Positions 2 through 23,718 of a stretch of 37,050 bases of DNA are shown here, in pieces. The stretch is from a virus. The notes under the pieces are model-generated. The model was not told the origin of the DNA. It saw nothing but the letters and a program-made list of their open reading frames with translations, and did not search any database. How positions within the stretch are numbered: position 1 is the stretch's first letter; each line of letters begins with the position of its first letter. The stretch spans positions 1 through 37,050 of IMG/VR virus record IMGVR_UViG_3300029787_003544; one strand, written 5' to 3'. A program made the translations under genes and the position numbers.

Positions 2-115
2 TCATTACAATTTGAGCTAGATAATAGTAGAGATATGCCACAGGAAGTGATGGAGTGGCTTGTCGAAAGAATTCAAACATTGAAAGAAGGATCAAATGTC
101 GTTGATAGGAACTGA
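2..115 (+). CDS. C-terminal end of an unknown gene (5' end outside window)
   Basis: An open frame enters from the left edge and stops at TGA 113-115, giving 37 residues. The visible tail is charged and amphipathic (contains MEWLVERIQTLKEG), which suggests a soluble helical end. The next gene starts inside it at 96, a 20-nt overlap typical of this genome, and this supports it being a real gene. The family cannot be recognised from this fragment. Confidence 0.55.
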   Translation, partial: SLQFELDNSRDMPQEVMEWLVERIQTLKEGSNVVDRN

Positions 116-308
116 GTATATTCCGTATGTTGCATCTTTGATAGGTGCAGGATTGTTTGTCATAGGATACTGGACTGGTCGTAATGTCGGCGTTGATATA
201 GGAGCTGGTGGGATGTTTGATAATCTGAGAGACAATGGATACATTACCACTGTGACAATGTATGATAGTGATGGTAATGAGGTTGAGGAGTTAGTACCGC
301 CTAAATGA
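96..308 (+). CDS. Small single-pass membrane protein, unknown function
   Basis: 70 residues. A hydrophobic stretch at about residues 9-27 (YVASLIGAGLFVIGYW) is one likely transmembrane helix. It is followed by a Gly-rich and then acidic tail. It overlaps the upstream gene by 20 nt and its TGA overlaps the next ATG (ATGA at 305-308), so the three are probably translated as one unit. I do not recognise the family. It is first of two small membrane proteins before the radical SAM pair, so a membrane-linked role with those enzymes is possible but only by position. Confidence 0.6.
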   Translation: MSLIGTEYIPYVASLIGAGLFVIGYWTGRNVGVDIGAGGMFDNLRDNGYITTVTMYDSDGNEVEELVPPK

Positions 309-613
309 GTGAACCTTTATATGATGATGATATGAATATTGTTAGACCATCTACGGTACAGAAGCAAACTCCTCTCCATGACATAACTTGGTACGTTAAA
401 TGGATAGGAACTATAATGTTAGTGTTTGCTGTAAGTGCTCGTTCAATAGGACCTGACTTAGTGTCAAACTTAGTTGACCAGACATTTAGTCTTTTAGGAC
501 TACTGTGCTGGTTCTTTGTAGCATTCAAATGGCACGACAGAGCTCTGATGACTGTCAATGCTATATGTCTTCCATTATTATTAGCAGGTATCATAAAGTC
601 ATTGTTTGTGTAA
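305..613 (+). CDS. Small multi-pass membrane protein, unknown function
   Basis: 102 residues with two or three hydrophobic segments: around 31-49 (WIGTIMLVFAVSA), 62-74 (LLGLLCWFFVAF) and 82-102 (VNAICLPLLLAGIIKSLFV). The N-terminus is acidic and soluble. It is coupled to the gene before it by ATGA, and only 3 nt separate its stop from the first radical SAM gene. No family is recognised. A phage-encoded inner-membrane protein is the safest description. Confidence 0.6.
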   Translation: MSEPLYDDDMNIVRPSTVQKQTPLHDITWYVKWIGTIMLVFAVSARSIGPDLVSNLVDQTFSLLGLLCWFFVAFKWHDRALMTVNAICLPLLLAGIIKSLFV

Positions 614-616
614 GCA

Positions 617-2773
617 ATGCAAAAGGTAAAGTGGTTCGACTTAAACAAACAACCAAAGAGCGAGCCTCCTCCTCGACCTGATGGTCAGTATCTAATTGAT
701 CGATCTACAGCTACACAAAAGCTGTTAGAGAAGTGGTCTAAAGGACCACAAAAAGGACTCCAAGAGATAGAAATACCGTACGAGGCAAATAGACAGACTC
801 GTCTATGTCTCGTTATGTGTCCTGAGTGGGATCCTGGATTCCCTCACTATGGTATTGCTAAGCTAGCTGGTGTAGCAAAGAATGCTGGGTTTCCTACTAA
901 GGCATTTGATCTCAATATAGAGGCATATAACGATTATATGCAGAACTGGGATATTGAATGGGATCCTTGGGCTGGAACGAGAGACTGGCATTGGACTGGC
1001 AATCAATACTATGAAGACCTTCATGAGTTAGTGAAACCTATCCTTGATAGTGGTATACAACGAATATATGAGTTCAATCCTGATCTTGTTGGATTTAGTT
1101 TGTACTACTGTAACAAAGGACCTACTGACTATATGATTAAACAGCTCAAGAAAGCTCTTCCAGATGTAAAGATCATAGTAGGTGGACCTCAGACTCATAT
1201 GAGTCATTTCAAGCCAGATGATATATATGACTATGTTGCTAATGGTGAGGGTGAGCAGACTCTTCTCACTACATTGTTAAAACTAGAGCAAAAGCAAGAG
1301 ATACCATATACAGAGATAAAGAATACATCTAGGATTATACGACAGGATGAGGATAAGAGGTTCAGTCTTGATAAACTACCATATCCTGACTATAGCGATC
1401 TACCTATGGGTAAGTACGTATTCTCTAATGGTGCTCTGTGTGCTATTAGTAGAGGATGTATTGCTAAGTGTACATTCTGTGAAGAGACTCATTTCTACAA
1501 ATATAGACAGCGTACTGCTGTATCAACATTAGATGAGGTACGATACATGTACTATACGTATGGTACAAATGTATTCTACTTCGTCGATAGTCTTATGAAT
1601 GGTAATCTCAAAGAGCTGAGAGCATTTTGTGAAGGAGTCAAGGCTGAGGGACTCAAGATATATTGGAGTGGATATGCACGATGTGATGGTCGTATGGATA
1701 AAGAATACTTCAAAGTACTAAGAGAGGGTGGATGTATAGCTCTTAACTATGGTACAGAGAGTGGATCCCAAGAAGTATTAGATGCTATGGATAAGAAGGT
1801 CACTATAGAAGAGATGGAGGCTAACTTCCGTGATGGATCGGATGTAGGTATTGAGGCACAGACTAATTGGATAGTTGGATATCCAAATGAGACTCCTAAG
1901 ATGCTTGAAGATACATTAACATTCTTATGGCGCAACAAAGATTATGGATTGATAACAGTATCGCAAGGCAATGGATTCACTGTCAGCGTAGACTCTATCG
2001 TAGGACAGAACTTTGATAAGTTTGAGCTTGCTCCTGTATATTACTATGATCATTGGATCAAGAAAGACTTTACTGCTAGTATAGCTCACAAACTGATAAA
2101 GATGAAGACGTTTGTCATATTCACAGAGGCTATGAAACCTCTTATGAAAGAAGAGTGTGCTATGCCTCATAGACCAAATCTAGCTTTGAAGCACTATAGA
2201 ATGAGATTCTATGATGATACGTTGCATAAGGATATGGAATATGACTACAGTGATATCAATTACAATATTATAGATCATGAGTGTCCTTTTGCTAGATCAT
2301 TAATGAATGAGATATGGCCATTCTTGAGAGCATTGTGGAGAGGACGTGGTGGATATAAATTACAGTTAAAGTTTAGACCTGAATTAGAAATGGAAGAGTG
2401 GGGTGAGCGTAACTGGGCACCAATATGGGCTAACTACGCATTTGATATTGATCACGATGGACGTTGGAATGCTCATTTTGTATTTAACTACATGCAGACT
2501 CATACAGATCACGTATACACAGAAGACAATAAATCTGAACCAGGTCCTGTTTGGAAGATAATGGAGTTTAATTTTCCAGAGATGAATAGTGCCTCATCAT
2601 TTAGAGCTAGGAAGCTAGCATGGAAAGGTGATAAGAGTAAAGAAGGGCTTGATCCATGGAATGCATGGTCTGAGGAATCCTTCGAGAAAAAGAAAGACTA
2701 CTATGGCAAGATGAAGTATAAAGACTTTAGCTTTAAGCATAAATATGTTGGAAAAGGTCACTGGACTCATTGA
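617..2773 (+). CDS. B12-binding-domain radical SAM protein (first of tandem pair)
   Basis: 718 residues. About 60-230 looks like a cobalamin-binding Rossmann domain, with PEWDPGFPHYGIAKLAG at the start, a VGGPQTH strand end near 188 and the VANGEGEQTLLTTL segment near 207. It lacks a clear DxHxxG motif, as is common in this enzyme group. The radical SAM core follows with CxxxCxxC at C281, C285 and C288, which should bind a [4Fe-4S] cluster and cleave S-adenosylmethionine. About 250 further residues, rich in Trp, Tyr and His, are of unknown role. Members of this family methylate or rearrange unactivated carbons, but the substrate is not readable here. It is followed by a second, different family member whose ATG overlaps this stop (TGATG). 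Confidence 0.88.
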   Translation: MQKVKWFDLNKQPKSEPPPRPDGQYLIDRSTATQKLLEKWSKGPQKGLQEIEIPYEANRQTRLCLVMCPEWDPGFPHYGIAKLAGVAKNAGFPTKAFDLNIEAYNDYMQNWDIEWDPWAGTRDWHWTGNQYYEDLHELVKPILDSGIQRIYEFNPDLVGFSLYYCNKGPTDYMIKQLKKALPDVKIIVGGPQTHMSHFKPDDIYDYVANGEGEQTLLTTLLKLEQKQEIPYTEIKNTSRIIRQDEDKRFSLDKLPYPDYSDLPMGKYVFSNGALCAISRGCIAKCTFCEETHFYKYRQRTAVSTLDEVRYMYYTYGTNVFYFVDSLMNGNLKELRAFCEGVKAEGLKIYWSGYARCDGRMDKEYFKVLREGGCIALNYGTESGSQEVLDAMDKKVTIEEMEANFRDGSDVGIEAQTNWIVGYPNETPKMLEDTLTFLWRNKDYGLITVSQGNGFTVSVDSIVGQNFDKFELAPVYYYDHWIKKDFTASIAHKLIKMKTFVIFTEAMKPLMKEECAMPHRPNLALKHYRMRFYDDTLHKDMEYDYSDINYNIIDHECPFARSLMNEIWPFLRALWRGRGGYKLQLKFRPELEMEEWGERNWAPIWANYAFDIDHDGRWNAHFVFNYMQTHTDHVYTEDNKSEPGPVWKIMEFNFPEMNSASSFRARKLAWKGDKSKEGLDPWNAWSEESFEKKKDYYGKMKYKDFSFKHKYVGKGHWTH

Positions 2774-4689
2774 TGAAACAGATACTAGTATCATGTCCTC
2801 CAATATCAGATAACTTTGCGTACTATCCATACATTGACTTGATAGCACGAGACGAACTACGTGACTATGACGTACAGTTCCATCAGTGCATATATCATAG
2901 ATTCACACCAGACACAGTAGGAGATTTTGATGACATCCTCATTCAGACAGATGTTTTATTACTTAGTTGTTATATATGGAATTTCCAGCTGCAGCTTATT
3001 CTTACTAAGCGGGCCCGTATCGTTAATCCTTCCATATTGGTTGTTGCTGGTGGTCCTCAGCTTCATAGACAATACTACGATTGGTTCGACCACAATGTCG
3101 TCGGGGAGGCAGAAGGTGCATTACAACAGATCATTGATGGTACAGCCGAGCACGTAATCAATACACCTCGTAAGACTGACTTTGAGAGGTCACCGTACAT
3201 CAACCAGCTACCAGCTTTGTTAGATATAAAAGACGCGTCACCTAATCCTCTTGGCATCATATTTGAGACATCTCGTGGATGCCCATATGGATGTTCATAT
3301 TGTGATTGGGGATCGCTTACTTTATCTAAGGTACACTTCTATGATATGGAGAGAGTCAAGAGCGAGCTAGAGGTGATATGTAGAGAGGTTAAACCAAACT
3401 ATCTATTCCTTGCAGATGCAAACTTTGGTATTGTGGAGAGAGATGTCGAGATAGCTCAGTTCATAGCATCTATGAAAGACAAGTATGGATATCCTAAGTC
3501 ATTCTACTATAGTGTCAGTAAGAATAATGCAGACCGTAACTTTAAGATAGGTAAGGTATTGTACGAAGGAGGAGTCGTCGACAACTATATTGTATCCGTA
3601 GTTCATGCTGACAGAGATGTTCTAAAGATAAACAGCCGTGGTAATATCAAGACAGAGCAATTCAAGAAACTATCACAAAAGTGTGTAGATAATGGTCTAC
3701 CTACTCAGACTCAGTTAGTTATGGGTATGCCTGGTGATACAATAGAGAAGTGGTTTGATAGCTTCTGCGAGACGTTTGAGTGGGGATTGCATGCAGAGAC
3801 TAAACCATACTGGTATAACGTACTACCAAATGCTCCAGCTAACAATAAGAAGTTCTGGGACGAATGGGACATAAGGACTCAAAGAGTTATATTCTCACAG
3901 GCTAGACTCAAAGCTGATGATGAGCTGATAGACAAGACAGCAGAGATTATCGTACAGTGTAAGAGCTTTAGTATAGAGGATTGGATTGTGATGAATAAGC
4001 ACTCTAGGTGGTTACAAGCACTCCATAACTTTGCTCTACTAAGAAATGTAGCAATGTACTATAGACACGTCATAGGACAGTCGTATAAGGAGTTTTACAC
4101 GGCTATAATAGACTACTTGTGGTCAACTGACCTGGGACAGCAGTATAACTCACAATACGACTCATACCTCCGTAAATTGCTAGATACACGATATCAAGAA
4201 GAATATGTACCATTTGAGTTCAATGGTAGAGAGATGAATATAGAACCAGAGGATGTGTTGTTCATGCACATACTAGACAATAAGGAACACTTCTATTGGT
4301 TAGTGAATAAGACATTTGGATATGACAGTGTGATAGTTCAAGATCTCATCAAGTATCAGAAAGATAGTATGATTGATATGTCATACAGTCCAGTAGATGG
4401 TCGTCGTGTTGCTATGGAGTATGATTGGATCCAATGGTTTGATCATCTAAGCGATAGTGCTACATTTATTGAGAAGAGAGATCCTCCACCCAAACAGAAT
4501 CAAGAGTTGGTATATTCTACTAATCAGGTACACATCAAGGGTGCCACAGAGTTTACATCATCTCGTATACTGTGGCATAAGACCAATAATCAAAAACGTA
4601 AAATGCAATTGTATGCTAAAGCTATCTTAGGTCAGATAGACTTCAGAGGTGAGAGGACACAATTCAAAGACTGGAAGAGAGTATCGTAA
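2773..4689 (+). CDS. B12-binding-domain radical SAM protein (second of tandem pair)
   Basis: 638 residues from the ATG at 2773; a TTG one codon earlier is possible but less likely. The N-terminal 130 residues resemble a compact cobalamin-binding domain (CPPISDN, then LLLSCYIWN, VVAGGPQLHR and VVGEAEGALQQII). The radical SAM motif CPYGCSYC lies at C170, C174 and C177, followed by DWGS. The C-terminal 300 residues are helical and Trp/Tyr-rich. It is only distantly similar to the upstream protein, so the pair is not a simple recent duplication and may do successive steps on one substrate. Its last 58 nt overlap the end of the minus-strand hydroxylase-like gene. The substrate is unknown. Confidence 0.87.
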   Translation: MKQILVSCPPISDNFAYYPYIDLIARDELRDYDVQFHQCIYHRFTPDTVGDFDDILIQTDVLLLSCYIWNFQLQLILTKRARIVNPSILVVAGGPQLHRQYYDWFDHNVVGEAEGALQQIIDGTAEHVINTPRKTDFERSPYINQLPALLDIKDASPNPLGIIFETSRGCPYGCSYCDWGSLTLSKVHFYDMERVKSELEVICREVKPNYLFLADANFGIVERDVEIAQFIASMKDKYGYPKSFYYSVSKNNADRNFKIGKVLYEGGVVDNYIVSVVHADRDVLKINSRGNIKTEQFKKLSQKCVDNGLPTQTQLVMGMPGDTIEKWFDSFCETFEWGLHAETKPYWYNVLPNAPANNKKFWDEWDIRTQRVIFSQARLKADDELIDKTAEIIVQCKSFSIEDWIVMNKHSRWLQALHNFALLRNVAMYYRHVIGQSYKEFYTAIIDYLWSTDLGQQYNSQYDSYLRKLLDTRYQEEYVPFEFNGREMNIEPEDVLFMHILDNKEHFYWLVNKTFGYDSVIVQDLIKYQKDSMIDMSYSPVDGRRVAMEYDWIQWFDHLSDSATFIEKRDPPPKQNQELVYSTNQVHIKGATEFTSSRILWHKTNNQKRKMQLYAKAILGQIDFRGERTQFKDWKRVS

Positions 4690-5138
4690 GTAGTCTTTGT
4701 GAATATCTTACGTAGTAGTATTCTCTCTTTACCTTTCACATCCACATAGTGTGGTACTTTACTATTCACTAGAGCAAAGTCATAGTATATCTGAAACTGT
4801 TTCTCTTTATCCATATTATAGAACTCTAGTGGTTGATGACCTTTCACAGTGACTGCTATCCAAGCTAACGACTTAGGATCTCTATGTATTGGTACAGAAC
4901 TTTCGGGTCCAAACCTGATGAATTGCCAATCCGTGTCCCTTTCAGGAAGATCAACGTCTTCTTCGAATTGTTTGCACCAGTCGTATACTGGACCTGAGCG
5001 TACTGCTCTAAATTGTATGTCGTTTCCATACTGCTCCCATTTATCGACTGCTTGTTGTTTTTTCATCTGCATCCATTCACGACAAATGTTCACATAAGGT
5101 CTATAGTTCAGATGTAGGTAGCAGTCTTGTTGATTCAT
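4632..5138 (-). CDS. Asp/Asn hydroxylase-like Fe(II)/2OG-type oxygenase
   Basis: 168 residues. The C-terminal half has the double-stranded beta-helix signature: HRD at H85/D87, a distal His at H130 in NSKVPHYV, and a basic residue for the cosubstrate in KERILLRK. This pattern fits aspartyl/asparaginyl beta-hydroxylase-like enzymes. The target is unknown. It closely resembles the gene at 23176-23718 (shared ALVNSKV and ERxLLR blocks). It is last in the primase-to-resolvase operon, coupled to its upstream neighbour by ATGA at 5138, and ends inside the converging radical SAM gene. Confidence 0.7.
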   Translation of the reverse strand: MNQQDCYLHLNYRPYVNICREWMQMKKQQAVDKWEQYGNDIQFRAVRSGPVYDWCKQFEEDVDLPERDTDWQFIRFGPESSVPIHRDPKSLAWIAVTVKGHQPLEFYNMDKEKQFQIYYDFALVNSKVPHYVDVKGKERILLRKIFTKTTYDTLFQSLNCVLSPLKSI

Positions 5139-5332: not shown

Positions 5333-5910
5333 AGCAAGCCTTGTATTATTGGACAGTCAATCTCATCTGGGTTGTTTATTGCATACTCACAGATAAAGAA
5401 ACTATCAACTATATCACTGATTGGATTGTCTCCAGCATAATTCATAACATCATGTATGTTTACACCAGTAGTTGTAATGAAGTTAGATAGCATCATCTCT
5501 TTCTTAGCATTACCTTTACCTGTAGCATATTTCTTTATTACTGTAGGAGGTACTTCATAGAATGGTATGTCTTTGTGTAACAGTCTATACTTTAGTATAC
5601 CAGTGTTCTCACCTATATTGAATACTCTACCAGTAGCTGCATATGCATAATCTTCTAATATTACAGCATTCACATCATAGCTCTTTATGACATCCATAGC
5701 CCAGGATGAGATGTATTTGTATCTTGAAATTGTTATTGGTATGTTGGGTAGTGAATGACCAAAGAATAAGAATGGCTGATGCCAATACTCATCTGCTAGT
5801 TTCTTCTTTAACGTAAGGAAATGAATGTCCCAACTGTCACCTACTTTAACACATATAGAAGGAGATGTGGTAGAATAATCTATTCCTGCAATGTTACTCG
5901 TCTTCTCCAT
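5329..5910 (-). CDS. RuvC-like Holliday junction resolvase
   Basis: 193 residues from the ATG at 5910. An RNase H-fold nuclease: NIAGIDYSTTSPS carries the first catalytic Asp just after the start, AVILEDYAYAATGR carries the conserved Glu, and SDIVDSFFICEYA carries the closing Asp residues. The central NTGILKYRLL and PPTVIKKYATGKGNAKKE blocks are typical of phage RuvC-like resolvases. It probably cuts branched recombination intermediates before packaging, the job of T4 endonuclease VII, which I do not see here. A GTG at 5949 would add 13 residues with no conserved content. I prefer 5910 because it begins just before the first strand and has GAAGAG about 10 nt upstream. Confidence 0.8.
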   Translation of the reverse strand: MEKTSNIAGIDYSTTSPSICVKVGDSWDIHFLTLKKKLADEYWHQPFLFFGHSLPNIPITISRYKYISSWAMDVIKSYDVNAVILEDYAYAATGRVFNIGENTGILKYRLLHKDIPFYEVPPTVIKKYATGKGNAKKEMMLSNFITTTGVNIHDVMNYAGDNPISDIVDSFFICEYAINNPDEIDCPIIQGLL

Positions 5911-6061
5911 ATTCATCATACTCTTCATACTGAGGTAGTTCTGCTCCACAATACGGACAATGTGTTGGGAGCAGGTCTACTACTTCTTCATTGTGTCCAA
6001 TGACACTAAATTCAGCACCACATTCTATACAGTGCTCTGTAGCTAAATCTTCTTCTTCCAT
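5894..6061 (-). CDS. Small zinc-ribbon protein
   Basis: 55 residues from the ATG at 6061. Two CxxC pairs (CIEC near residue 11 and CPYC near residue 36) form a zinc ribbon, followed by a very acidic Glu/Asp/Tyr tail. A TTG at 6082 would lengthen it by seven residues but lacks a good ribosome binding site. It lies directly after nrdJ and overlaps the resolvase gene. Such small zinc ribbons are common in phages, and their partner is usually unknown. A DNA- or protein-binding role is likely. Confidence 0.72.
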   Translation of the reverse strand: MEEEDLATEHCIECGAEFSVIGHNEEVVDLLPTHCPYCGAELPQYEEYDEYGEDE

Positions 6062-6078
6062 AAGATTATATAGATAAA

Positions 6079-7989
6079 TCAAATCTCACAGTTGCCAGCC
6101 ACACAAGCCAACTCTTGAGCTCCTTCTGTCATATCTGTAGTTTCAAACTGTGCTAGTAGTTCAGCCCAATTGACTGCCTCTGGCATCTTAGTCTTGAACT
6201 CTTCATACTCTTCTTTAGTACAATCTTGGTATGGAGCTTGTCTGTATGTGTGATCAGAGAATGGTAGAAAGCTCACACCAGACATCCAATCCCAGTTAGA
6301 ATATACCCAAGCACCAACTTCCATCCACTCATGTTCTTTTACTGTTATAGTGACAGATGGCTTATGCTCACACCAATGCATTTGATACTTCAACCACAGT
6401 TCTAGTTGTTCGATAGCTGTCATGTCTGTACGAAATACAGCACCAGGATCTGCTTTCATAGGAAAGCTGAACACATATGTGTGCTCTGGTTTCATTACAT
6501 CATCTTCAACAGGAAACTGAGCCTCTACCATAGCCTTGGCAAGCGGGTCTTTCTTATCTGCTCTAACCGTTCTAATGTAGTACGGGTTATGTCTCGCATG
6601 AATGCCAGAGGCGCTATCGACAAGCTGAGAGACAGTTCCAGAAGGTTTAACGCAAGTAACAGCAGCAGACTGAGGTATGCCAATAGCTTCAGCATGAAGT
6701 TTATTAGTCTCGACCGCAACGTCTCTAAGTCTTTCCAACCTTTCTTCAAGTCCATTATCCTTTCCATTTGTTAGTGTGGAATCCATTATACCTGTTAGGC
6801 TAACTCCGAGTAGCCTTTCTTCTTCACAATTGACTTTCCATCTTTTCGAGATGTATTTAAAGTTTGTGAGGGTTGATTGCCATGTACCCAAGATCGAGGC
6901 CAATCTAACCTTTCTAGCGAGGTCATTTTCACTATCGGTTGGTCTGACGACGACTTCTGTGAGATTGCAGAACTCATTGTTTCTAAGGATAATCTCAGAG
7001 CATGGATTTGTTCCAAAATCATGGTTAGGGTTTCTTCGACCGAACCTTTCGACTTGCATCTTAGCTGACTCTCTGTTGAAGATGCCTCGTTCTCCACTCT
7101 TTGAGTCGTATAAGGATTTCCATTCGTCCATGAAGACCCCAATGTCTGGCTTTTCAGTGTAGCATGCAGAGTTATTGGATAAGGCTCTTTGAGCTTCGTT
7201 TTCCCACCAAGAGCCAGCTTTTGCAGCTCGCATTCTATCGTCTGATAAGTTGGATAATGATATAAGTGCACTTCTTCTTACTCCTCCTACTACTACAATT
7301 TCAGCTATTTTACATACTAAATCATGACACTCTAATGATGACAGCTTACGTCCAGCTGCACCTTTAAACTTACTTACACAAAATTTAAACAAGTCAACTA
7401 ATGGCTCTGGTCCAGAGCTTCTACCACCAAATGTCTTCAATACAGCTCCAGCTGGTCTTACACTAGAAGTATCCCAAGTTGGAATCATACCAGCATATAG
7501 ATTAGCAATTAGCTCTTTCAATGACTTTGCCCAACCAGTACGTGAGTCAGCAACCTTGATGCACGTATCACTAGGATGGAACTCATCAGCAACAGTTGGA
7601 AGTTGTTGTACGTGTTGTCTCTCTACACTAAATCCTACACCAGTACCATTCATTAGGATATATAATACTTCATCAAAAGCTGTGATACGATCAATAGCAA
7701 TATATGAACAATTGTATCCAGCAATATTGTCTCTCTTCAATGCTGGTCCAGCTGTCATAATAGAACGCATAGAAGGCATTACTTCTAAGTTAAGTGTAGC
7801 TTCTTCTAACTCTTTACGTTCTCCGTTGAGCTTGAATCCATGTTGTTCTTCTAAATGCTCTTCAAAGAAGTCATAATATCTTGTTACTGTTTCTTCCCAG
7901 GACTCTCTCCGTCCTTCGTCTTCTAGCCAACGTGAGTATCTACTTAAATGAATGTACTCTTGGTACTGAGTTGGTAGGTGGTTGCTCAT
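6079..7989 (-). CDS. nrdJ: Adenosylcobalamin-dependent ribonucleotide reductase (class II, monomeric)
   Basis: 636 residues. It reduces ribonucleotides (triphosphates in the monomeric class II enzymes) to deoxyribonucleotides, feeding phage DNA synthesis. The active site NPCSEIIL holds the thiyl-radical Cys C330 and Glu E332. C94 and C341 form the reducing pair, and the 11-residue spacing from C330 to C341 matches the Lactobacillus leichmannii enzyme. The C-terminus ends in ACVAGNCEI, the CxxxxC redox shuttle. No NrdB-like subunit is present or needed. It starts at ATG 7989, coupled to the upstream small gene by overlap. It requires coenzyme B12 from the host. The middle third (about 6540-7260) differs in codon texture from both ends. 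Confidence 0.95.
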   Translation of the reverse strand: MSNHLPTQYQEYIHLSRYSRWLEDEGRRESWEETVTRYYDFFEEHLEEQHGFKLNGERKELEEATLNLEVMPSMRSIMTAGPALKRDNIAGYNCSYIAIDRITAFDEVLYILMNGTGVGFSVERQHVQQLPTVADEFHPSDTCIKVADSRTGWAKSLKELIANLYAGMIPTWDTSSVRPAGAVLKTFGGRSSGPEPLVDLFKFCVSKFKGAAGRKLSSLECHDLVCKIAEIVVVGGVRRSALISLSNLSDDRMRAAKAGSWWENEAQRALSNNSACYTEKPDIGVFMDEWKSLYDSKSGERGIFNRESAKMQVERFGRRNPNHDFGTNPCSEIILRNNEFCNLTEVVVRPTDSENDLARKVRLASILGTWQSTLTNFKYISKRWKVNCEEERLLGVSLTGIMDSTLTNGKDNGLEERLERLRDVAVETNKLHAEAIGIPQSAAVTCVKPSGTVSQLVDSASGIHARHNPYYIRTVRADKKDPLAKAMVEAQFPVEDDVMKPEHTYVFSFPMKADPGAVFRTDMTAIEQLELWLKYQMHWCEHKPSVTITVKEHEWMEVGAWVYSNWDWMSGVSFLPFSDHTYRQAPYQDCTKEEYEEFKTKMPEAVNWAELLAQFETTDMTEGAQELACVAGNCEI

Positions 7990-8180
7990 TTACTATCTTC
8001 TCCTAATTTGTATTGACGTTCTCGTTCATCGTATCTTTTATTGTATTCAGCAACAAGAGCCATGTAAGCCATAACATCACCATCCCATTCAGGATCTTTT
8101 CTCATATGCTTTTCCATCGCTTTCCTTAACTGATCATCTGTCAGTTCTGTAATTGGTTTACCTCTGTGTAAGTATCTCAC
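7986..8180 (-). CDS. Small conserved-looking protein between thyX and nrdJ
   Basis: 64 residues, charged and helical (LTDDQLRKAMEKHMRKD then MALVAEYNKRY), with no membrane segment. It starts with GTG at 8180: AAAGGAG lies 5 nt upstream within the end of thyX, and GTGA overlaps the thyX stop. Its own stop overlaps the nrdJ ATG. Placement between two dNTP-synthesis genes suggests a helper role, but no function can be read from the sequence. Confidence 0.68.
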   Translation of the reverse strand: MRYLHRGKPITELTDDQLRKAMEKHMRKDPEWDGDVMAYMALVAEYNKRYDERERQYKLGEDSK

Positions 8181-8845
8181 ACCATCTCCTTTATCATAGG
8201 AAATACCTTAGCCAACTCCAATGCACATAACTGAGCTATTTGTCTGTGTTCCTTTTGTGTACCAGGATCCAATCTCAACTCAAGATAATGAATCCATGAC
8301 CTCACAGTACCATTCATATACATTCTACTCATTGTTAGACCTTCAGGTAGGATAGCTCTGGCTTGCTCCTTAGCAATACCATTCTGTATAGCCCACACAT
8401 AAAATGCATTTGCATAGTTAATGATCTTTTCTTGATGGGATTCCCATTCAGATATAAGGTCATTGTGATGTGGATTCTCTGAACTCAGTTCTAAGCTATT
8501 CTGTCTATTCTTATCATCTTGTAGTCTTGCATCTCTCATCACAAACTCTAGTTCTTGTGTTGGATCAGCATATCTCTGACTAAATTCCTGAAAGCTAAAT
8601 GATCTGTGTCTAAGTATTTGTCTCCCTATATCTCTTGTAGTTTCTATTTCCATACAAACATTGACCATCTCAAATGGACTCCAATGCTTGTGCTTAACCA
8701 AATACTTCAGCAGCTTATCAGCAGTATCTTTATTGTCCTGGTTTCCAGGATTAGACACTCTAGCACAATAAGCAATAATATCTGTCATTTGCATCTCTGG
8801 ACCAATAGCTCCAGAGTGGCTCACTAACTTAACGCTACCATTCAT
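8177..8845 (-). CDS. thyX: FAD-dependent thymidylate synthase ThyX
   Basis: 222 residues from the ATG at 8845. It makes dTMP from dUMP using methylenetetrahydrofolate, with FAD and NADPH as reductant. The ThyX signature RHRx7S is present (RHRSFSFQEFS, about residues 79-89), preceded by HKHWSPFEM and followed by QRYADP. The C-terminal half has EQARAILPEGLTM and the HYLELR segment of the dUMP site. A TTG four codons earlier is less likely, because ATG 8845 overlaps the primase TGA as ATGA, the coupling used throughout this operon. It is functionally paired with NrdJ downstream. Confidence 0.95.
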   Translation of the reverse strand: MNGSVKLVSHSGAIGPEMQMTDIIAYCARVSNPGNQDNKDTADKLLKYLVKHKHWSPFEMVNVCMEIETTRDIGRQILRHRSFSFQEFSQRYADPTQELEFVMRDARLQDDKNRQNSLELSSENPHHNDLISEWESHQEKIINYANAFYVWAIQNGIAKEQARAILPEGLTMSRMYMNGTVRSWIHYLELRLDPGTQKEHRQIAQLCALELAKVFPMIKEMV

Positions 8846-9870
8846 ACTTTTTGCCAATGTTGGAGTGCCATCTTAGCTGACAGTCCTTCATAAGTATTCT
8901 CATCAATAATCATTTTTATATCTGCTATCCTCATTCCACTCATAACCATATCGTTTACATCTTTATGTTCTAATGTAGATGGCCACACTACTATCTTGCG
9001 GTTCATCCCAATAGACTTGTCCATCTTTCTCACTATCTGCACACTTCGTGGCTCATTATCATAAACCATAACATAGTTGCCAAATGATAAATGTCCATCT
9101 GACCCAGCCAATGCTATAGCATTGTGTATAAACATACTATCAAAAGGACCTTCCATAACATATACTAACTTAGAATCATTGACAGTATCCAACCCAAATA
9201 GCTTTGGGTGTGGCCCAAGCATTATGGTAATGTATCTAAGTGTACTCTCTGGTGATAAACTTCGACCTTGAAAGCCAAACATCCGGCCTTTTTTATCAAG
9301 TAGTGGTATGATAAGTCTAGGTTCATCCTTGGTTCCCTTACCAAACTTACCAGGCACGAGTTGATTGACCCAAGACTGGAACTTTTGGCAATAGTATAGT
9401 TTAGCATGATACGGATTAGGTATCTTGCGTTGTGTAATATATTGTTTAACTGGATGATCCCAGTTTAATTGGCTAACCTTCTTCAACTTACTCAGCGGAC
9501 TGTTCTTCTGACCAGGTCCTGGTACTGAAGAGGTTTGTTCAGTAGAACTACTTATGGGTTTTGGTTTCTCGAGATCCGCATGAACGTCGAGAATTCTGTC
9601 GTGGTCACCTAATTTTTCTAGTCGATATTCTCTATATAATGTTATGTCCTGATCGTATAAAAATCCTTTGAAATCTTTATTCTTACCACAGTTATGACAG
9701 TAGTAGAATAGAGATCCTTTCTTAGGTAACAAGTATCCTCTAGCCTTAAACTTGTTCCTCTGACTGTCTCCACAGTAAGGACACGAGAAGTTAAACTTAG
9801 AGTCTTGCACCTTCCAGTTACGAAGACGATTAGACAGCATTAGTGCATATTTACGATCAATGTGTTCCAT
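8842..9870 (-). CDS. gp61: T4 gp61-like DNA primase
   Basis: 342 residues. It makes the RNA primers for lagging-strand synthesis with the gp41 helicase encoded at 27564-28925. The N-terminal zinc ribbon uses C30, C33, C58 and C61 (SCPYCGD and YYCHNCGK). The catalytic TOPRIM domain has VYVMEGPFDSMF followed by the VYDNEPRS acidic motif and DVNDMVM. The length matches T4 gp61. It heads the operon running to 4632. A sigma70-like promoter sits so close that transcription should begin at or next to the ATG. Confidence 0.92.
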   Translation of the reverse strand: MEHIDRKYALMLSNRLRNWKVQDSKFNFSCPYCGDSQRNKFKARGYLLPKKGSLFYYCHNCGKNKDFKGFLYDQDITLYREYRLEKLGDHDRILDVHADLEKPKPISSSTEQTSSVPGPGQKNSPLSKLKKVSQLNWDHPVKQYITQRKIPNPYHAKLYYCQKFQSWVNQLVPGKFGKGTKDEPRLIIPLLDKKGRMFGFQGRSLSPESTLRYITIMLGPHPKLFGLDTVNDSKLVYVMEGPFDSMFIHNAIALAGSDGHLSFGNYVMVYDNEPRSVQIVRKMDKSIGMNRKIVVWPSTLEHKDVNDMVMSGMRIADIKMIIDENTYEGLSAKMALQHWQKV

Positions 9871-9876
9871 TGTTAA

Positions 9877-9905
9877 AGTATCAAGTAAACTGCGGGTTAG
9901 GTCAA
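9877..9905 (-). promoter_or_regulatory. Predicted sigma70-like promoter, leaderless geometry, for primase operon
   Basis: On the minus strand: TTGACC (9905-9900), a 17-nt spacer, GATACT (9882-9877), then six bases and the ATG at 9870. With the usual spacing the first transcribed base would be the A of the ATG. The same arrangement precedes DNA polymerase. The -35 matches five of six consensus bases and the -10 four of six. Confidence 0.55.
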
Positions 9906-9908
9906 CAA

Positions 9909-10562
9909 CTAAACGTAATCTCTACTAAGAATATAATCTCTGAGAGTGAATCCTGATGTTTTTAAGTATGGTTTGTATTCTGGATCTCTTAGTGCATTTG
10001 GATTCAATATCTGTAAAAGATAGTATCTTGGTACATCACCACCATTAATGAATGTATGACGTACAAGATTGTTCACTAAGTATCCTTTGCCTGGCTCTGG
10101 AGTGAATGCCCAGGATCTATTGTCATCCATCTTGAATATGAATGAGCAATCATCATTGGTAATGACAGGTATTTGAAAACCAATAGCTTTATCAGTATGC
10201 CAGTTGTAACAACTACGAGGTTCCATTCTAGCATAGGTACCACCTATCAATTTGTACTTGTCTTTTACTTCTTGGTAATATGTGCCTTGTCTGTGATGGT
10301 AAGGAATGTCTCTTAGTCGAGCTCTCTTACCTCTAGTAGCACCTTTGTATCTGTCTTCTTGTCTGTTATCAGCAGCATCTTTCCATGCAAGAGCTACCTC
10401 ACTATCTGAATCATCTGCATCTTGGAAATCAAACCAAGGAAGATTATCATACATATTATCTAAGTCATATTGTAGTTGTTCAACATCTAAGTCGCAAAAC
10501 TCTTCAAACAACCACCCAACCTTTATACCATTTATTGTTCCATAATCTATAGTATTAACCAT
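9909..10562 (-). CDS. Asp/Asn hydroxylase-like Fe(II)/2OG-type oxygenase
   Basis: 217 residues. The N-terminal 100 residues are acidic and helical. The C-terminal barrel has NWHTDK (H122, D124), LVRHTF (H169) and PRYYLL (R179), the HxD...H...R arrangement of Fe(II)/2-oxoglutarate oxygenases and closest to aspartyl/asparaginyl hydroxylase-like proteins. It resembles the 26145-26678 product (shared YLVN and distal His blocks) more than the other copies in the window. The substrate may be a protein side chain, but nothing here fixes it. Its first 16 nt overlap a small membrane-protein gene. Confidence 0.72.
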   Translation of the reverse strand: MVNTIDYGTINGIKVGWLFEEFCDLDVEQLQYDLDNMYDNLPWFDFQDADDSDSEVALAWKDAADNRQEDRYKGATRGKRARLRDIPYHHRQGTYYQEVKDKYKLIGGTYARMEPRSCYNWHTDKAIGFQIPVITNDDCSFIFKMDDNRSWAFTPEPGKGYLVNNLVRHTFINGGDVPRYYLLQILNPNALRDPEYKPYLKTSGFTLRDYILSRDYV

Positions 10563-10690
10563 AATATACCACCTATCAAAAATATGTCAGCGCATATACT
10601 CCAAACTATGTATGCTCTGAACATCCATTTACCCAATTCATAATAAGACGAATTCCGTCTATCCTGCAAAAATCTTAACAATGTCCGCAC
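10547..10690 (-). CDS. Tiny single-pass membrane protein overlapping both neighbours
   Basis: 47 residues if begun at the GTG at 10690, which has GGGAG 6 nt upstream; an internal ATG at 10624 would give only 25. The N-terminal half is polar (LQDRRNSSYYELGKW) and the rest is one hydrophobic helix (AYIVWSICADIFLIGGILWLIL). It fills the otherwise empty gap 10563-10658, overlapping the upstream gene by 32 nt and the downstream oxygenase by 16 nt. Good residue composition and the ribosome binding site support it. The start is uncertain. Confidence 0.5.
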   Translation of the reverse strand: MRTLLRFLQDRRNSSYYELGKWMFRAYIVWSICADIFLIGGILWLIL

Positions 10691-10961
10691 TACCAACTCC
10701 CATACCTAGGACGATAGCACCACCAAGCAAGACCCATCTCCATCGTTCGAGGCTATTGAGTCTATCCATAACCTCATCTCGCAAATCACCAATACGTTTA
10801 TGTAGTTTTTCTACTTGATCGTATTGTTGTTTGTTTTTCTCTTCTTGTTGTGTTAGCTTAGTTTCATGTATAACTAAGACTTGTTTGACCTCATTACTGA
10901 CGTCAGTTAGTTTCTCTATTGCAACATCGAGACGTTTAACTATTATTTCAATAGGTTCCAT
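10659..10961 (-). CDS. Coiled-coil protein with C-terminal membrane anchor
   Basis: 100 residues. Residues 1-70 are heptad-like and highly charged (KLTDVSNEVKQVL, QYDQVEKLHKRIGDLRDEV). About 76-95 is hydrophobic (VLLGGAIVLGMGVGSAD), followed by a short tail. The layout resembles the XhlA-type proteins that act next to holins, although sequence similarity cannot be tested here. It lies just downstream of the spike and lysis genes, consistent with a role at the host membrane during lysis or DNA entry. Confidence 0.62.
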   Translation of the reverse strand: MEPIEIIVKRLDVAIEKLTDVSNEVKQVLVIHETKLTQQEEKNKQQYDQVEKLHKRIGDLRDEVMDRLNSLERWRWVLLGGAIVLGMGVGSADIVKIFAG

Positions 10962-11202
10962 TGTCTCTTATTTCCTTAAGCTCTGCTTCTAACTTATCTA
11001 GTCTGGCTTTTAATTGTGGAAACTTTGCCATTCTCTTCTCTTCATCAGTTATCAGCTTTAGTCCGTATCTATTAGCAGCCCATGTATACAATTGATCCAC
11101 CTTAGCATAGAACCATACACCTAACTTTGTATCTCTGAACCAGCTATCAGATGCTGATCCAATGATAGATCCTGCTATCGACATTATTAACCAGGTCCAC
11201 AT
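10948..11202 (-). CDS. Small membrane protein with charged C-terminal helix
   Basis: 84 residues from the ATG at 11202, which follows the stop of the PAAR gene by 1 nt. An upstream TTG- or ATG-like start would lie inside that gene and adds little. MWTWLIMSIAGSIIGSASDSW is a hydrophobic start, followed by an amphipathic middle and a Lys/Glu coiled-coil end (LKARLDKLEAELKEIR). It overlaps the next gene by 14 nt. It could be a holin-like or entry-related protein; the family is not recognised. Confidence 0.62.
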   Translation of the reverse strand: MWTWLIMSIAGSIIGSASDSWFRDTKLGVWFYAKVDQLYTWAANRYGLKLITDEEKRMAKFPQLKARLDKLEAELKEIRDNGTY

Positions 11203-11203
11203 A

Positions 11204-11491
11204 TCAGTCAGCCACAAATACGTCACTAGAGCCAGCAGCAGTAGCTGGATTGCAATGTGGAGGTATTGGACAGATACTGTCTGCAGCTGCATTATCTGGT
11301 GAATGATTTACTACTAGTTTACCCTCACAGAAGACTTGATTACAATCTGCAATTAGACCTCCACCACCATGAGTGTTAGGATCTTCATTAACAGCTACCA
11401 ATAAGGCATTTGCAAACACAGAACTCTGGCCATTGACTGTTGTCGTTGCACCACAACTTCTTCCATCTGTATCTCTGTGAATTGCAGGCAT
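11204..11491 (-). CDS. PAAR-domain baseplate spike tip protein (T4 gp5.4-like)
   Basis: 95 residues. It starts MPAIHRDTDGRSCG, with later VFANALLVAVNEDPN, HGGGGLIA and VFCEGKLVVNHSPD and a C-terminal HCNPATAAGSSDVFV. This repeated Gly/Asn/His-rich pattern is typical of PAAR proteins, small cone-shaped zinc-binding tips that cap the trimeric spike and pierce the host outer membrane. Cys and His residues suitable for the metal site are present. The gene is coupled by overlap to the lipase gene upstream, which suggests spike-borne or lysis-linked delivery of that enzyme. Confidence 0.85.
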   Translation of the reverse strand: MPAIHRDTDGRSCGATTTVNGQSSVFANALLVAVNEDPNTHGGGGLIADCNQVFCEGKLVVNHSPDNAAADSICPIPPHCNPATAAGSSDVFVAD

Positions 11492-12369
11492 TAGAAGTCT
11501 ATCTCCCTTCCTTTATTTTCCCATGTACCAAATCGTGTAGGCTCAGGTCCTGATGGTCCACCTAGTTCTTTAGGCTTTTCCATCCAATTATTATAGAGTG
11601 CTTTACAATATTTATCCATTGAATGATCTCTCAGACCATCAAAAAACTCTAGTTTCTTCCATGCTGACATATGTCCTCTGCAATGATCTTTGAACTTCTG
11701 CCACCATGTATAGTTTCTAATGTAACCATAATGGTTTATATACGTTACCTCTCCTACATGGTTGAATCCTATCCATGCTGGAGGAACTGTAGGCACTAGG
11801 TCATTGTTGTTTCTCATTCTGTGTAATCTGCCTTTAAAGTTCTTAACAAACTTACTATCTCCAGATCTAGGAGCTCCATATGTATATACTATAGGAGAAC
11901 CGTTAGGACGGCATAGTTGAGAGTATAGTGTGGCCATTGCGCCACCTAGACTGTGACCTGTGATATAAACTTGTTTTTCTGTCTTGAATATATGTGGAGC
12001 TAGACAATCAGCTAGCTTCCATACCTCAATCATAAACCCTCTATGAACTCTACCATGACCTCTATGCCAAGTCTTACGAAAAGACATATCAGCTTTTATA
12101 TCGCTCCACTCTTTAGGTTCTGTTCCTCTAAAAGCCACAACAATGTGGTCTTTATTCTCTAGTACATAACATTGAGCACCTTCTTGATCATAGAATGCAC
12201 ATACATAACCTAGCTTATCCCAATGTTTCTTTGTGCATCCAGGATCTTTATATGCTAATGCTGATATGACTGCAAAGTAGTATCTATTGTACTCCTGTTG
12301 TTTTAGCTTTAAGGTCTCCGAATCCAAATGTTCGAACAAATCCCGCCATCCCGGTTGCTTTTGACTCAT
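11491..12369 (-). CDS. Class 3 lipase (alpha/beta hydrolase)
   Basis: 292 residues. The nucleophile elbow is GHSLGG with S140, preceded by the oxyanion-site block VVAFRGTEPKEWSD. NNNDLVPTVPP carries the acid (D190), and LRDHSMDKY near H249 is the likely His. This Ser-Asp-His order and the DLVP block match fungal-type class 3 lipases. There is no signal peptide, so exit would need lysis or the virion. It overlaps the end of the lipoprotein gene by 86 nt, and its stop abuts the PAAR ATG. Probable substrates are membrane lipids of the host or a neighbouring cell. Confidence 0.88.
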   Translation of the reverse strand: MSQKQPGWRDLFEHLDSETLKLKQQEYNRYYFAVISALAYKDPGCTKKHWDKLGYVCAFYDQEGAQCYVLENKDHIVVAFRGTEPKEWSDIKADMSFRKTWHRGHGRVHRGFMIEVWKLADCLAPHIFKTEKQVYITGHSLGGAMATLYSQLCRPNGSPIVYTYGAPRSGDSKFVKNFKGRLHRMRNNNDLVPTVPPAWIGFNHVGEVTYINHYGYIRNYTWWQKFKDHCRGHMSAWKKLEFFDGLRDHSMDKYCKALYNNWMEKPKELGGPSGPEPTRFGTWENKGREIDF

Positions 12370-12784
12370 GCTCTTTTCTTTCCGTTTCAGCTTGTTTTTG
12401 TTCGCTGTTATGTCTATTTATTTCTTGTTTCTGTGCTGCATGATATTTCTCATAAGCATAGATTATAGCTCTTTGTTGTTGGACTAATGACAATATCTTT
12501 GCATTGTTGACAGACATTATCTCATAGCCTTTGTCTGTTACACCAAATATCACTTCATCATAGCCTTTTTTCTCAAGCTCTTTGAATACATCAGCTGCAT
12601 TATCTTTATTAATAATCCACCATTCAAGTTGCTCCAAGATAAGAGGATCCACTTTAGGTAATGTTAAATTGACTTGCTTAACAGGAGATATCAATATCTC
12701 CAATGGCTTTACGCTACTGCATCCTACGGTTAGGGTTAGCAACGCTAGGGCAGCTATTGTTAAGCTGACTCTTCTTCTCAGCAT
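12284..12784 (-). CDS. Outer-membrane lipoprotein, o-spanin-like
   Basis: 166 residues. A basic start and hydrophobic stretch end in a lipobox (LTLTVGCSS, lipidated Cys near 22), so the mature protein should be an outer-membrane lipoprotein. The middle contains LEWWIINKDNAADVF and GVTDKGYEIMSVN, and the end is a polar helix rich in Gln, Glu and Lys. It starts inside the upstream membrane/coiled-coil gene by 71 nt, the overlapping arrangement typical of Rz/Rz1 spanin pairs. It is larger than most Rz1 proteins, so the spanin role is an inference. Confidence 0.68.
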   Translation of the reverse strand: MLRRRVSLTIAALALLTLTVGCSSVKPLEILISPVKQVNLTLPKVDPLILEQLEWWIINKDNAADVFKELEKKGYDEVIFGVTDKGYEIMSVNNAKILSLVQQQRAIIYAYEKYHAAQKQEINRHNSEQKQAETERKEHESKATGMAGFVRTFGFGDLKAKTTGVQ

Positions 12785-13199
12785 TTTGTTCTTTCTCCGT
12801 CAACGGTTGACCACTTAGAATCTCAAAACATCGTAATACGTTTTTAGTCCCTTTGTCGATTATCTTCTTGATTGGTTTAGGTTTATGAGTTGCTAGTTTA
12901 CCAATATCTCTGTTACCAAGTAACTTTGATTGTTTGTTAAACTTATTTCGTACTGATTCTATCTGTTGTCTAGCTACTTGAAGTTCTTTTTGAGCTTCGA
13001 CTGCAAGCTGGCTAGCGAGCTTAACATCTGCTTGCATCTTATTGATAGTTTCGGTTTGTATTTTGGTGGCAGTTTCTAACTTAGCATTGTTTTCATGGAG
13101 TATAGCTAGTTTCTTTTGTGTATCAGTATAGTACCAATACCCAACTCCTCCTAGTGCTATCATTATTGCTGCCATCAAGGCTGCAAGTTTCAATCCCAT
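12714..13199 (-). CDS. Inner-membrane coiled-coil protein, i-spanin-like
   Basis: 161 residues. It has an N-terminal signal anchor (LAALMAAIMIALGGVGYWYY), then about 75 residues of Gln/Lys/Glu-rich coiled coil, then a basic segment (KPKPIKKIIDKG) and two Cys in the tail. One membrane anchor plus a periplasmic coiled coil is the i-spanin plan. The partner lipoprotein gene begins within its last 71 nt. It sits directly after the Cys-rich miniprotein (TAATAA then ATG). Together the pair would fuse inner and outer membranes in the last step of lysis. Confidence 0.7.
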   Translation of the reverse strand: MGLKLAALMAAIMIALGGVGYWYYTDTQKKLAILHENNAKLETATKIQTETINKMQADVKLASQLAVEAQKELQVARQQIESVRNKFNKQSKLLGNRDIGKLATHKPKPIKKIIDKGTKNVLRCFEILSGQPLTEKEQNAEKKSQLNNSCPSVANPNRRMQ

Positions 13200-13202
13200 T
13201 TA

Positions 13203-13325
13203 TTACTCTGGTATTGATACGCAATGGCCACAAGGATCATTCTCAGTACAGAGACATGGATCACAATCACATTCTGGATTCATACATTCACATTCTGGAT
13301 TCATACATTCATCGTTGTTACACAT
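13203..13325 (-). CDS. Cys-rich 40-residue miniprotein, metallothionein-like composition
   Basis: 40 residues with ten Cys (2, 7, 12, 14, 19, 21, 24, 26, 32, 35), mostly in CxC, CxxC and Cx4C spacing, with Asp/Glu/Asn/Pro between them and one His. A seven-residue unit (MNPECEC / MNPECDC) is repeated directly. There is no signal peptide or membrane segment. AAAGGA lies about 8 nt before the ATG, and two stops separate it from the next ATG by no gap, so it looks like a real gene. It lies between an intrinsic terminator and the spanin pair. Metal binding is inferred from composition only. Confidence 0.66.
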   Translation of the reverse strand: MCNNDECMNPECECMNPECDCDPCLCTENDPCGHCVSIPE

Positions 13326-13339
13326 ATCGCATCCTTTCT

Positions 13340-13367
13340 AAAAAAACGGCAGCCATAAAGCTGCCGT
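13340..13367 (-). terminator. Intrinsic terminator (minus strand)
   Basis: An 8-bp GC-rich stem (ACGGCAGC at 13346-13353 with GCTGCCGT at 13360-13367) and 6-nt loop are followed, in minus-strand direction, by seven U. It lies 9 nt after the end of the small gene at 13377 and only 15 nt before the Cys-rich gene, so that gene depends on read-through. Confidence 0.85.
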
Positions 13368-13376
13368 CTGTTAGGG

Positions 13377-13562
13377 TTACTTTTGTTTCAAATTTTTTAA
13401 ATCATCTTGCATTTTGTTGAATAGGTCAAATAATGTACGCACCTTATCTTCTAATGTTTTAACCGCATAATACGTCTGCGAGAGTACTATTACAAGACCC
13501 ACAAAGGCTACCAATATCGGCCATAGAGCCCCTATGGCATCAAATGTAGTGGCAGTATCCAT
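13377..13562 (-). CDS. Small membrane protein with coiled-coil tail (holin candidate)
   Basis: 61 residues. One hydrophobic helix (about 12-32, LWPILVAFVGLVIVLSQTYYA) is followed by a charged coiled-coil-like segment (LEDKVRTLFDLFNKMQDDLKNL). The upstream sequence has AAAAGGAG before the ATG. Size, single span and position next to the spanin-like pair make a holin or antiholin role plausible, but there is no family signature. It is immediately followed by a strong terminator. Confidence 0.65.
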   Translation of the reverse strand: MDTATTFDAIGALWPILVAFVGLVIVLSQTYYAVKTLEDKVRTLFDLFNKMQDDLKNLKQK

Positions 13563-13619
13563 TATTGATCTTCTCCTTTTCTACAAATTGTTTCATTTCA
13601 TAGCAAAAGGTATTATAGA

Positions 13620-13781
13620 TTAGTCTTCTTTTGTTACCATAGTCCAGAAGCCCCATCCAATAGCTGCATATGCAGCATAATGTGCCCAAGGACTAAGGAA
13701 TAAGAAAATCAAACCTATTGCCATTAAAGAAACTCCATCCCAGGTTGTTCTTTCGGCAATACGATCTTTGATCCAATCCAT
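13620..13781 (-). CDS. Small hydrophobic membrane protein (holin-like)
   Basis: 53 residues: a basic amphipathic start (MDWIKDRIAERTTWDG) then a hydrophobic segment that can form one long or two short spans (LMAIGLIFLFLSPWAHYAAYAAIGWGFW), ending in TKED. AAGGAG lies 6 nt upstream of the ATG, a strong ribosome binding site. It fills the gap between 13562 and 13807. Small two-span proteins of this type often serve as holins, and the lysis genes are adjacent, but the role is inferred. Confidence 0.66.
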   Translation of the reverse strand: MDWIKDRIAERTTWDGVSLMAIGLIFLFLSPWAHYAAYAAIGWGFWTMVTKED

Positions 13782-23156: not shown

Positions 23157-23179
23157 TATTTAGTATACTACATATTTAG
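23157..23179 (-). promoter_or_regulatory. Two tandem CTAAATA late-promoter-like motifs
   Basis: On the minus strand CTAAATA occurs at 23179-23173 (overlapping the stop of the upstream gene) and again at 23163-23157, 34 nt before the ATG of the 874-residue gene. The 52-nt gap contains nothing else recognisable. Confidence 0.45.
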
Positions 23180-23718
23180 ATCAAAGTCAACGCTGTATTG
23201 AAATAATTTTTGATTTGATAGAAGTGATTTAACGTAAACATTCGTCTCAAAAGCAGTCTTTCTCCACCATCAGATGTAGGTGCATGATACACTTTACTGT
23301 TAACTAATGCTACAGAATAGTTTCTAAAACCAATTGGCGTCTCTTTATCATCCTCGTAGAATCCTAGTTCTTGTTCACCTCGTATGTTGAATGCAACCCA
23401 ACAAAAAGATGCAGGATCTTTGTGTATTGGCATTTGTGTTGCACCTTGTATATATTGCCATGACCATAGATGTCTGCCATCTGGTTCAACATGAGCTATA
23501 ATTTGATTTTCTCCTGGAACAGGAATCATATCAGTAGTTTCATCTACTATTGTTCTTTCTGGAACAAAAGGATGCATACCTTGCATAGTATCATATTCTT
23601 CATGCGTGGATAAGAATGTGTGTGGCATATCCAATTGTCTAGTAAATTCTTTTGATAGTGCCTCTCTATCAAACCTTATATAAGGAGAGAGATCAAAAAA
23701 TGCATCATCAATGTCCAA
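23176..23718 (-). CDS. Asp/Asn hydroxylase-like Fe(II)/2OG-type oxygenase
   Basis: 180 residues, beginning with TTG at 23718 (no earlier ATG fits; it overlaps the upstream gene by 11 nt). Motif set: IHKDP (H99, D101), NSKVYHAP (H145) and GGERLLLRR (R154). The closest relative in this window is the 4632-5138 product, which shares ALVNSKV and the FYxxDKE block, so these two probably arose by duplication. The upstream gene is another family member, making a tandem pair. The substrate is unknown. Confidence 0.7.
   Translation of the reverse strand: MDIDDAFFDLSPYIRFDREALSKEFTRQLDMPHTFLSTHEEYDTMQGMHPFVPERTIVDETTDMIPVPGENQIIAHVEPDGRHLWSWQYIQGATQMPIHKDPASFCWVAFNIRGEQELGFYEDDKETPIGFRNYSVALVNSKVYHAPTSDGGERLLLRRMFTLNHFYQIKNYFNTALTLI

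Follow-up and report, generated by a model that had tools for sequence, protein, structure and literature searches.

A translationally coupled pair of dissimilar cobalamin-dependent radical SAM proteins in a T4-like phage

The virus record IMGVR_UViG_3300029787_003544, analysed here over its full 37,050 nucleotides and called the window below, begins with five plus-strand open reading frames (ORFs) that adjoin or overlap one another: an ORF truncated by the contig end, a 70-amino-acid protein, a DUF6552 protein and two large genes, gene 1 and gene 2, both of which encode cobalamin (B12)-dependent radical S-adenosylmethionine (SAM) proteins (Table 1). The DUF6552 ORF overlaps the one before it by 4 nucleotides and leaves a gap of 3 nucleotides to gene 1, while gene 1 and gene 2 share one base between stop and start. 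The TTG start listed for gene 2 (position 2770) lies one codon too early. The left contig end cuts the operon 617 bases before gene 1, and scans for promoters and terminators gave no more signals than shuffled sequence did. The products of genes 1 and 2 are probably made together from one message. An earlier note on this DNA had described two different B12-radical SAM enzymes, translationally coupled and carried by a phage, and this is borne out by the domains, the cysteines and the TGATG overlap, for which chance does not account.

Table 1. Coordinates of the coupled pair, its key residues and other features of the window
Feature	Position	Strand	Details
C-terminal end of upstream ORF	2..115	+	open frame SLQFELDN...VVDRN, then TGA; stop 113-115; cut by contig end
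70-aa small protein	96..308	+	one weak hydrophobic segment (hydropathy)
102-aa membrane protein, DUF6552	305..613	+	Pfam PF20189, 2e-13, above cut-off; hydrophobic segments
Gene 1, cobalamin-dependent radical SAM protein, virus-borne family	617..2773	+	718 aa; Pfam, 39-sequence alignment, predicted fold
Gene 1 C165	1109..1111	+	aligned with TokK Trp under cobalt; C/I/T/F/M across family
Gene 1 CxxxCxxC (C281, C285, C288)	1457..1480	+	kept in 39/39 family sequences
TGATG stop-start overlap, gene 1/gene 2	2771..2775	+	TGA stop 2771-2773, ATG 2773
Gene 2, TokK/CysS-like cobalamin-dependent radical SAM protein, probable methylase	2773..4689	+	638 aa; phmmer, Foldseek
Gene 2 W69 (TokK W76 / CysS W75)	2977..2979	+	under cobalt; 24/24 family members
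Gene 2 CxxxCxxC (C170, C174, C177) and W179 (TokK W215)	3280..3309	+	alignment, family conservation
Convergent hydroxylase-like gene	4632..5138	-	HxD...H...R by eye; overlaps last 58 bases of gene 2
Hydroxylase/dioxygenase-type gene	9909-10562		weak match
Asp/Asn hydroxylase	26145-26678		above Pfam cut-off
TauD	35186-36079		above Pfam cut-off

Gene 2 resembles TokK, the carbapenem C6 methylase (PDB 7KDX/7KDY), and CysS, the cystobactamid methylase (PDB 9N1B), over nearly the full length of sequence and fold. Its Pfam match to Radical_SAM lies above the cut-off (8e-10) and that to B12-binding below it (1e-5), and phmmer found TokK at 7e-63 and CysS at 7e-40. An AlphaFold2 model built from an alignment of 25 viral sequences had a predicted local distance difference test score (pLDDT) of 76.4, with low confidence for residues 584-638. 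As compared by Foldseek with the PDB, this model matched TokK (8.8e-40, template modelling (TM) score 0.76) and CysS (2.2e-29, TM 0.67), followed by a large gap, and its superposition on 7KDY gave TM-scores of 0.76/0.73 over 645 columns, the C-terminal domain included. Gene 2 thus shares with both enzymes a three-part layout, a tryptophan under the cobalt and a tryptophan two residues past the last cluster cysteine. The tryptophan under the cobalt blocks the lower face of the metal in TokK and CysS (PMC9692996, PMC13331322, PMC12846815), and the role of TokK W215 was taken from PMC9692996. In the gene-2 family the cluster motif (3280-3303) is kept in 24 of 24 sequences and W179 in 21 of 24. 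Gene 2 differs from the two enzymes in its identity of only about 23%, in its phage location outside any antibiotic cluster, and in its score against the KedN5-family model (NF033712) of 143 bits, where the cut-off is 700. Because this cut-off is so far from being reached, we suggest that gene 2 works like TokK and claim no membership of the named family for it. It is likely to methylate carbon.

The gene 2 protein is also under purifying selection. Compared with its nearest relative, in contig L005, it is 83% identical with a ratio of nonsynonymous to synonymous substitution rates (dN/dS) of 0.11 over the 444 shared codons, and therefore the gene has been kept for its protein. The dS between these two phages is about 0.95 for gene 2, much below that of the neighbouring ribonucleotide reductase (RNR; about 2.5); this would fit a more recent exchange of the gene-2 cassette, a reading that saturation makes uncertain. 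No bacterial relative comes closer to gene 2 than about 32% identity (best segment), with a maximum of 27% over the tree alignment.

Gene 1 represents a distinct viral family with the cobalamin-radical-SAM fold. Both its Pfam matches, Radical_SAM at 1e-14 and B12-binding at 3e-10, lie above the cut-off, and an invariant E289-E290-T291-H292 directly follows its cluster motif in 39 of 39 family sequences. The model (pLDDT 86.4) matched the PDB folds of TsrM, OxsB, AprD4, MgmA, TokK, CysS and MiaB-type proteins. The first four of these, with TM-scores of about 0.4 over the query and 13-18% identity, have in common with gene 1 the cobalamin-binding Rossmann domain and the radical SAM core, and PDB profile matches were limited to these two domains; the C-terminal part of about 270 residues found no PDB profile match, and it is rich in residues that are invariant in the 39-sequence alignment. 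Gene 1 is like TsrM in having a Glu two residues past the last cluster cysteine (TsrM E236, PMC9692996), a likeness that does not extend to the lower face, where Arg69 of TsrM is replaced by the varied residues at position 165. Named NCBIfam models all scored far below their cut-offs (ApyD 116 of 750 bits, PhpK 100 of 600, BchE 96 of 481), as did rSAM_ocin_1 with 89 bits. The cobalamin-type N-terminal domains described in the earlier note are borne out, as the predicted structures of both proteins show a cobalamin-radical-SAM architecture.

Scanning viral contigs confirmed 181 relatives of gene 1, at about 720 residues, of which 80 were kept for analysis. Among about 50,000 phage records the only match of gene 1 in an isolate was a partial one of 27% in Streptomyces phage SF3, and a second member of the family had none. 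In 398 Pseudomonadota genomes the family was absent at E<=1e-60; the profile used scores above 1200 bits on G003 and G019. A recent acquisition of gene 1 from cells was rejected, there being no full-length match in these genomes or in 12 genomes that bear relatives of gene 2.

How, then, do the two genes belong together? Their proteins match each other weakly, at about 46-48 bits. With matches counted from above 900 bits, because lower scores came from the gene 1 protein or from different radical SAM proteins, we found the gene-2 family on 13 of the 49 contigs that bear distant (group B) relatives of gene 1. This much of the expected co-occurrence stands, and it makes the multi-step modification suggested in the earlier note plausible; the coupled arrangement, however, is not conserved. 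The tandem pair is unusual, and the order gene 1-gene 2 was not found outside the window among the contigs of the relatives. Tandems of another kind were seen: phage locus L104 (5809-9797) has a second coupled pair, in which one gene-2-type gene runs 4 bases into another, with sugar epimerase genes and SPASM radical SAM genes around them, and three Clostridia genomes from rumen and gut (L135, L136, L140) hold three TokK-like genes close together.

The surroundings of the relatives were then compared over 58 gene-1 loci, dereplicated at 95% identity: 22 in the close group (group A, at least 50% identical to gene 1, the window included) and 36 distant ones. Within about 8 kb, every one of the other 21 close loci has 3-8 radical SAM genes besides its gene-1 relative, and 1-5 are present at 25 of the 36 distant loci. 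The neighbour met most often combines an N-terminal SPASM with a radical SAM domain and matches N_Twi_rSAM (NF033640) at 374.5 bits (cut-off 170); unlike genes 1 and 2, this type is without a cobalamin domain. Recurrent neighbours are a nucleotide-sugar dehydrogenase, a SAM-dependent C-methyltransferase with Methyltransf_13/14, a carbamoyltransferase, a Stf0 sulfotransferase, a DegT aminotransferase, sugar epimerases and a cytidylyltransferase/mannose-6-phosphate isomerase. Further families, without a Pfam match, were judged by eye to be similar to DxD glycosyltransferases or to SGNH esterases. Runs of radical SAM genes also occur elsewhere, with 22 matches in several clusters on the viral contig L002 (518,643 bases) and a series of N_Twi-like genes in the isolate Vibrio phage K566 (L312; record 161548-165950), which may serve as a model of the island that can be cultivated.

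Gene-2 relatives occur in further settings. In L101 (7257-10693) and L126 (7317-10773) viral sisters of gene 2 have a phosphoribosyltransferase gene directly on one side and a QueE-like gene on the other; QueD/PTPS-like genes are close by, as is a SAM synthetase in L101. In a Nitrosopelagicus genome (L167, 5088-9959) a gene-2-like enzyme follows genes that by eye resemble phosphoenolpyruvate mutase, part of phosphonopyruvate decarboxylase, and a nucleotidyltransferase, a possible candidate locus for phosphonate methylation.

Upstream of the pair two small membrane proteins had been described. The DUF6552 protein agrees with this, whereas the 70-residue protein, which had no Pfam or PHROG match, shows just its one weaker segment. 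A functional tie of the enzymes to these membrane proteins is not supported, and as a general rule we reject it: among 80 loci examined, from 87 confirmed viral relatives of DUF6552, none had the gene-1 family, the gene-2 family or three companion radical SAM clusters nearby. They form a family of their own, independent of the two enzymes. In L231 the flanks of the window recur in the same order (DUF6552 46%, RuvC 60% and RNR 76% identical), and genes 1 and 2 are replaced (5905-13701) by another radical SAM protein of 306 residues, a TauD dioxygenase and others. This swap and the DUF6552 survey, with a single syntenic relative, suggest that the slot is an exchangeable site for metabolic cargo beside replication genes, with the membrane proteins as its flank. 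The L231 slot also holds two small proteins with motifs resembling 2-oxoglutarate-dependent oxygenases by eye.

From fold and motifs it is very probable that both proteins perform cobalamin-dependent radical chemistry. Each enzyme would methylate cob(I)alamin with one SAM, and a second SAM would yield the 5'-deoxyadenosyl radical needed to abstract hydrogen from an unactivated carbon of the substrate; the resulting carbon radical would then accept the methyl group of methylcobalamin. Gene 2 would follow TokK and CysS, methylases of a type that works iteratively on pantetheinylated substrates, and might itself act more than once; gene 1 would act at another position or on an earlier intermediate, its specificity coming from the distinct C-terminal part. 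Methylation, the order of the steps and the substrate are our proposal. For the pair we tentatively favour a sequential radical C-methylation of, probably, a glycan, a nucleotide sugar or a similar building block of envelope or virion, a reading drawn from neighbours which we hold to be somewhat short of probable as a whole. In other phages, relatives of both genes have sugar-nucleotide and tailoring genes around them, which is why this substrate class is preferred. The earlier note had held that the substrate could not be read from the sequence, and we agree; it had also listed lipids among the candidates, and on that point the neighbourhoods shift the balance towards glycan-type biosynthesis.

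Several observations weigh against this reading. OxsB, AprD4 and BchE are cobalamin-radical-SAM enzymes that do not methylate, and for this reason it is not certain that gene 1 methylates. On the window contig, whose left side is cut off, the pair has neither a sugar gene nor a third radical SAM gene next to it; the 37 kb hold just two radical SAM matches, and N_Twi_rSAM was not found in them, unlike in most loci of gene-1 relatives. The gene-2 family was found on none of the 33 close-group gene-1 contigs, an absence that is weak because many of these contigs are short. Finally, the nearest viral sisters in the gene-2 tree, L101 and L124 (96/97 support), adjoin a phosphoribosyltransferase and a QueE-like gene.

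The pair could instead modify a peptide or protein, such as a tail fibre, another virion protein or a host protein, in the manner of PoyB/PoyC-type or Mmp10/MgmA-type methylases. The best NCBIfam matches of gene 1, far below cut-off as they are, include models for ribosomally synthesized and post-translationally modified peptides or for P-/C-methylases (ApyD, PhpK, rSAM_ocin_1); MgmA, which methylates a glutamine of methyl-coenzyme M reductase, is both a fold and a profile match; and the SPASM-type radical SAM genes around the relatives are of a type common in peptide maturation. We nevertheless consider this unlikely, as the companion genes are of the sugar-tailoring and not the peptide-export kind, and by inspection, which did not search small ORFs systematically, no precursor peptide or peptidase was recognized near the relatives.

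A similarly low probability attaches to the view that the enzymes belong to separate pathways and owe their adjacency only to a slot that collects metabolic cargo. The unrelated content of the same slot in L231 and the close gene-1 relatives that are without gene 2 would fit it. The one-base overlap of stop and start argues for a common role, however, and so does the co-occurrence of the families on distant-group contigs.

Improbable, in our estimate, is a role in the hypermodification of nucleotides or DNA bases, perhaps 7-deazaguanines. This option was retained on account of the surroundings just described for the nearest viral sisters of gene 2, a phosphoribosyltransferase gene and a QueE-like gene on either side, to which a PTPS/QueD-like gene close by may be added. 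Moreover, a QueE-like gene is present at 10 of 36 gene-2 loci, and OxsB, whose fold gene 1 matches, acts on a nucleotide. Yet these sisters are just 25-28% identical to gene 2, sugar genes and SGNH-type genes are the more abundant ones at most gene-2 loci, and no queuosine gene was recognized in the window. Modification of lipids was rejected, with no lipid gene recognized near the relatives and only weak matches to the HpnJ and HpnR models.

Returning to glycan-type methylation, a bolder version, which we regard as doubtful, would make gene 1 the founding member of a class of cobalamin-radical-SAM enzymes peculiar to viruses. Together with TokK-like methylases and as many as eight additional radical SAM enzymes, this class would assemble a glycan with carbon branches, or some other hypermodified molecule, that is foreign to the host, and phages would swap the modules as cassettes.

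Other genes of the window complete the picture. The convergent hydroxylase-like gene had no Pfam or PHROG match, has a paralogue at 23176-23718 (40% identical over 94 residues) and stays beside gene 2 in L005; its association with the chemistry of the pair is uncertain. The window comes from a T4-like myovirus of bacterial hosts, as judged by its gp43-type polymerase, UvsX, DnaB-like helicase, RegA, gp62 clamp loader and Hsp20, and these hosts are probably marine. Its polymerase is 47.9% identical to that of cyanophage S-SM2, and its RNR is of the B12-dependent class II, closest to that of Puniceispirillum phage HMO-2011 (65.7%), which fits a host that supplies cobalamin. Genes 1 and 2 resemble the core phage genes in GC content and codon use and adjoin replication genes (RNR, ThyX, primase), with no tail-fibre region recognized there; the window holds no tRNA.

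What is known of cobalamin-dependent radical SAM methylases comes mainly from cellular pathways for antibiotics, cofactors and peptides, and in the open-access literature we found no description of cobalamin-dependent or TokK-like radical SAM enzymes in phages. Environmental (marine) T4-like genomes carry up to 12 radical SAM genes (PMC5332604), and pelagimyophages hold radical SAM cassettes in their host-recognition cluster (PMC7029224); the parts of these two papers considered here do not name cobalamin-dependent or TokK-like types, and the present pair differs from such cassettes in its place beside replication genes. The viral gene-1 family, together with TokK-like enzymes in phages, would mean that uncultured viruses run demanding, oxygen-sensitive and B12-consuming carbon chemistry during infection; such chemistry would supply new enzymes and offer a testable route by which a phage may alter host surfaces or its own particles.

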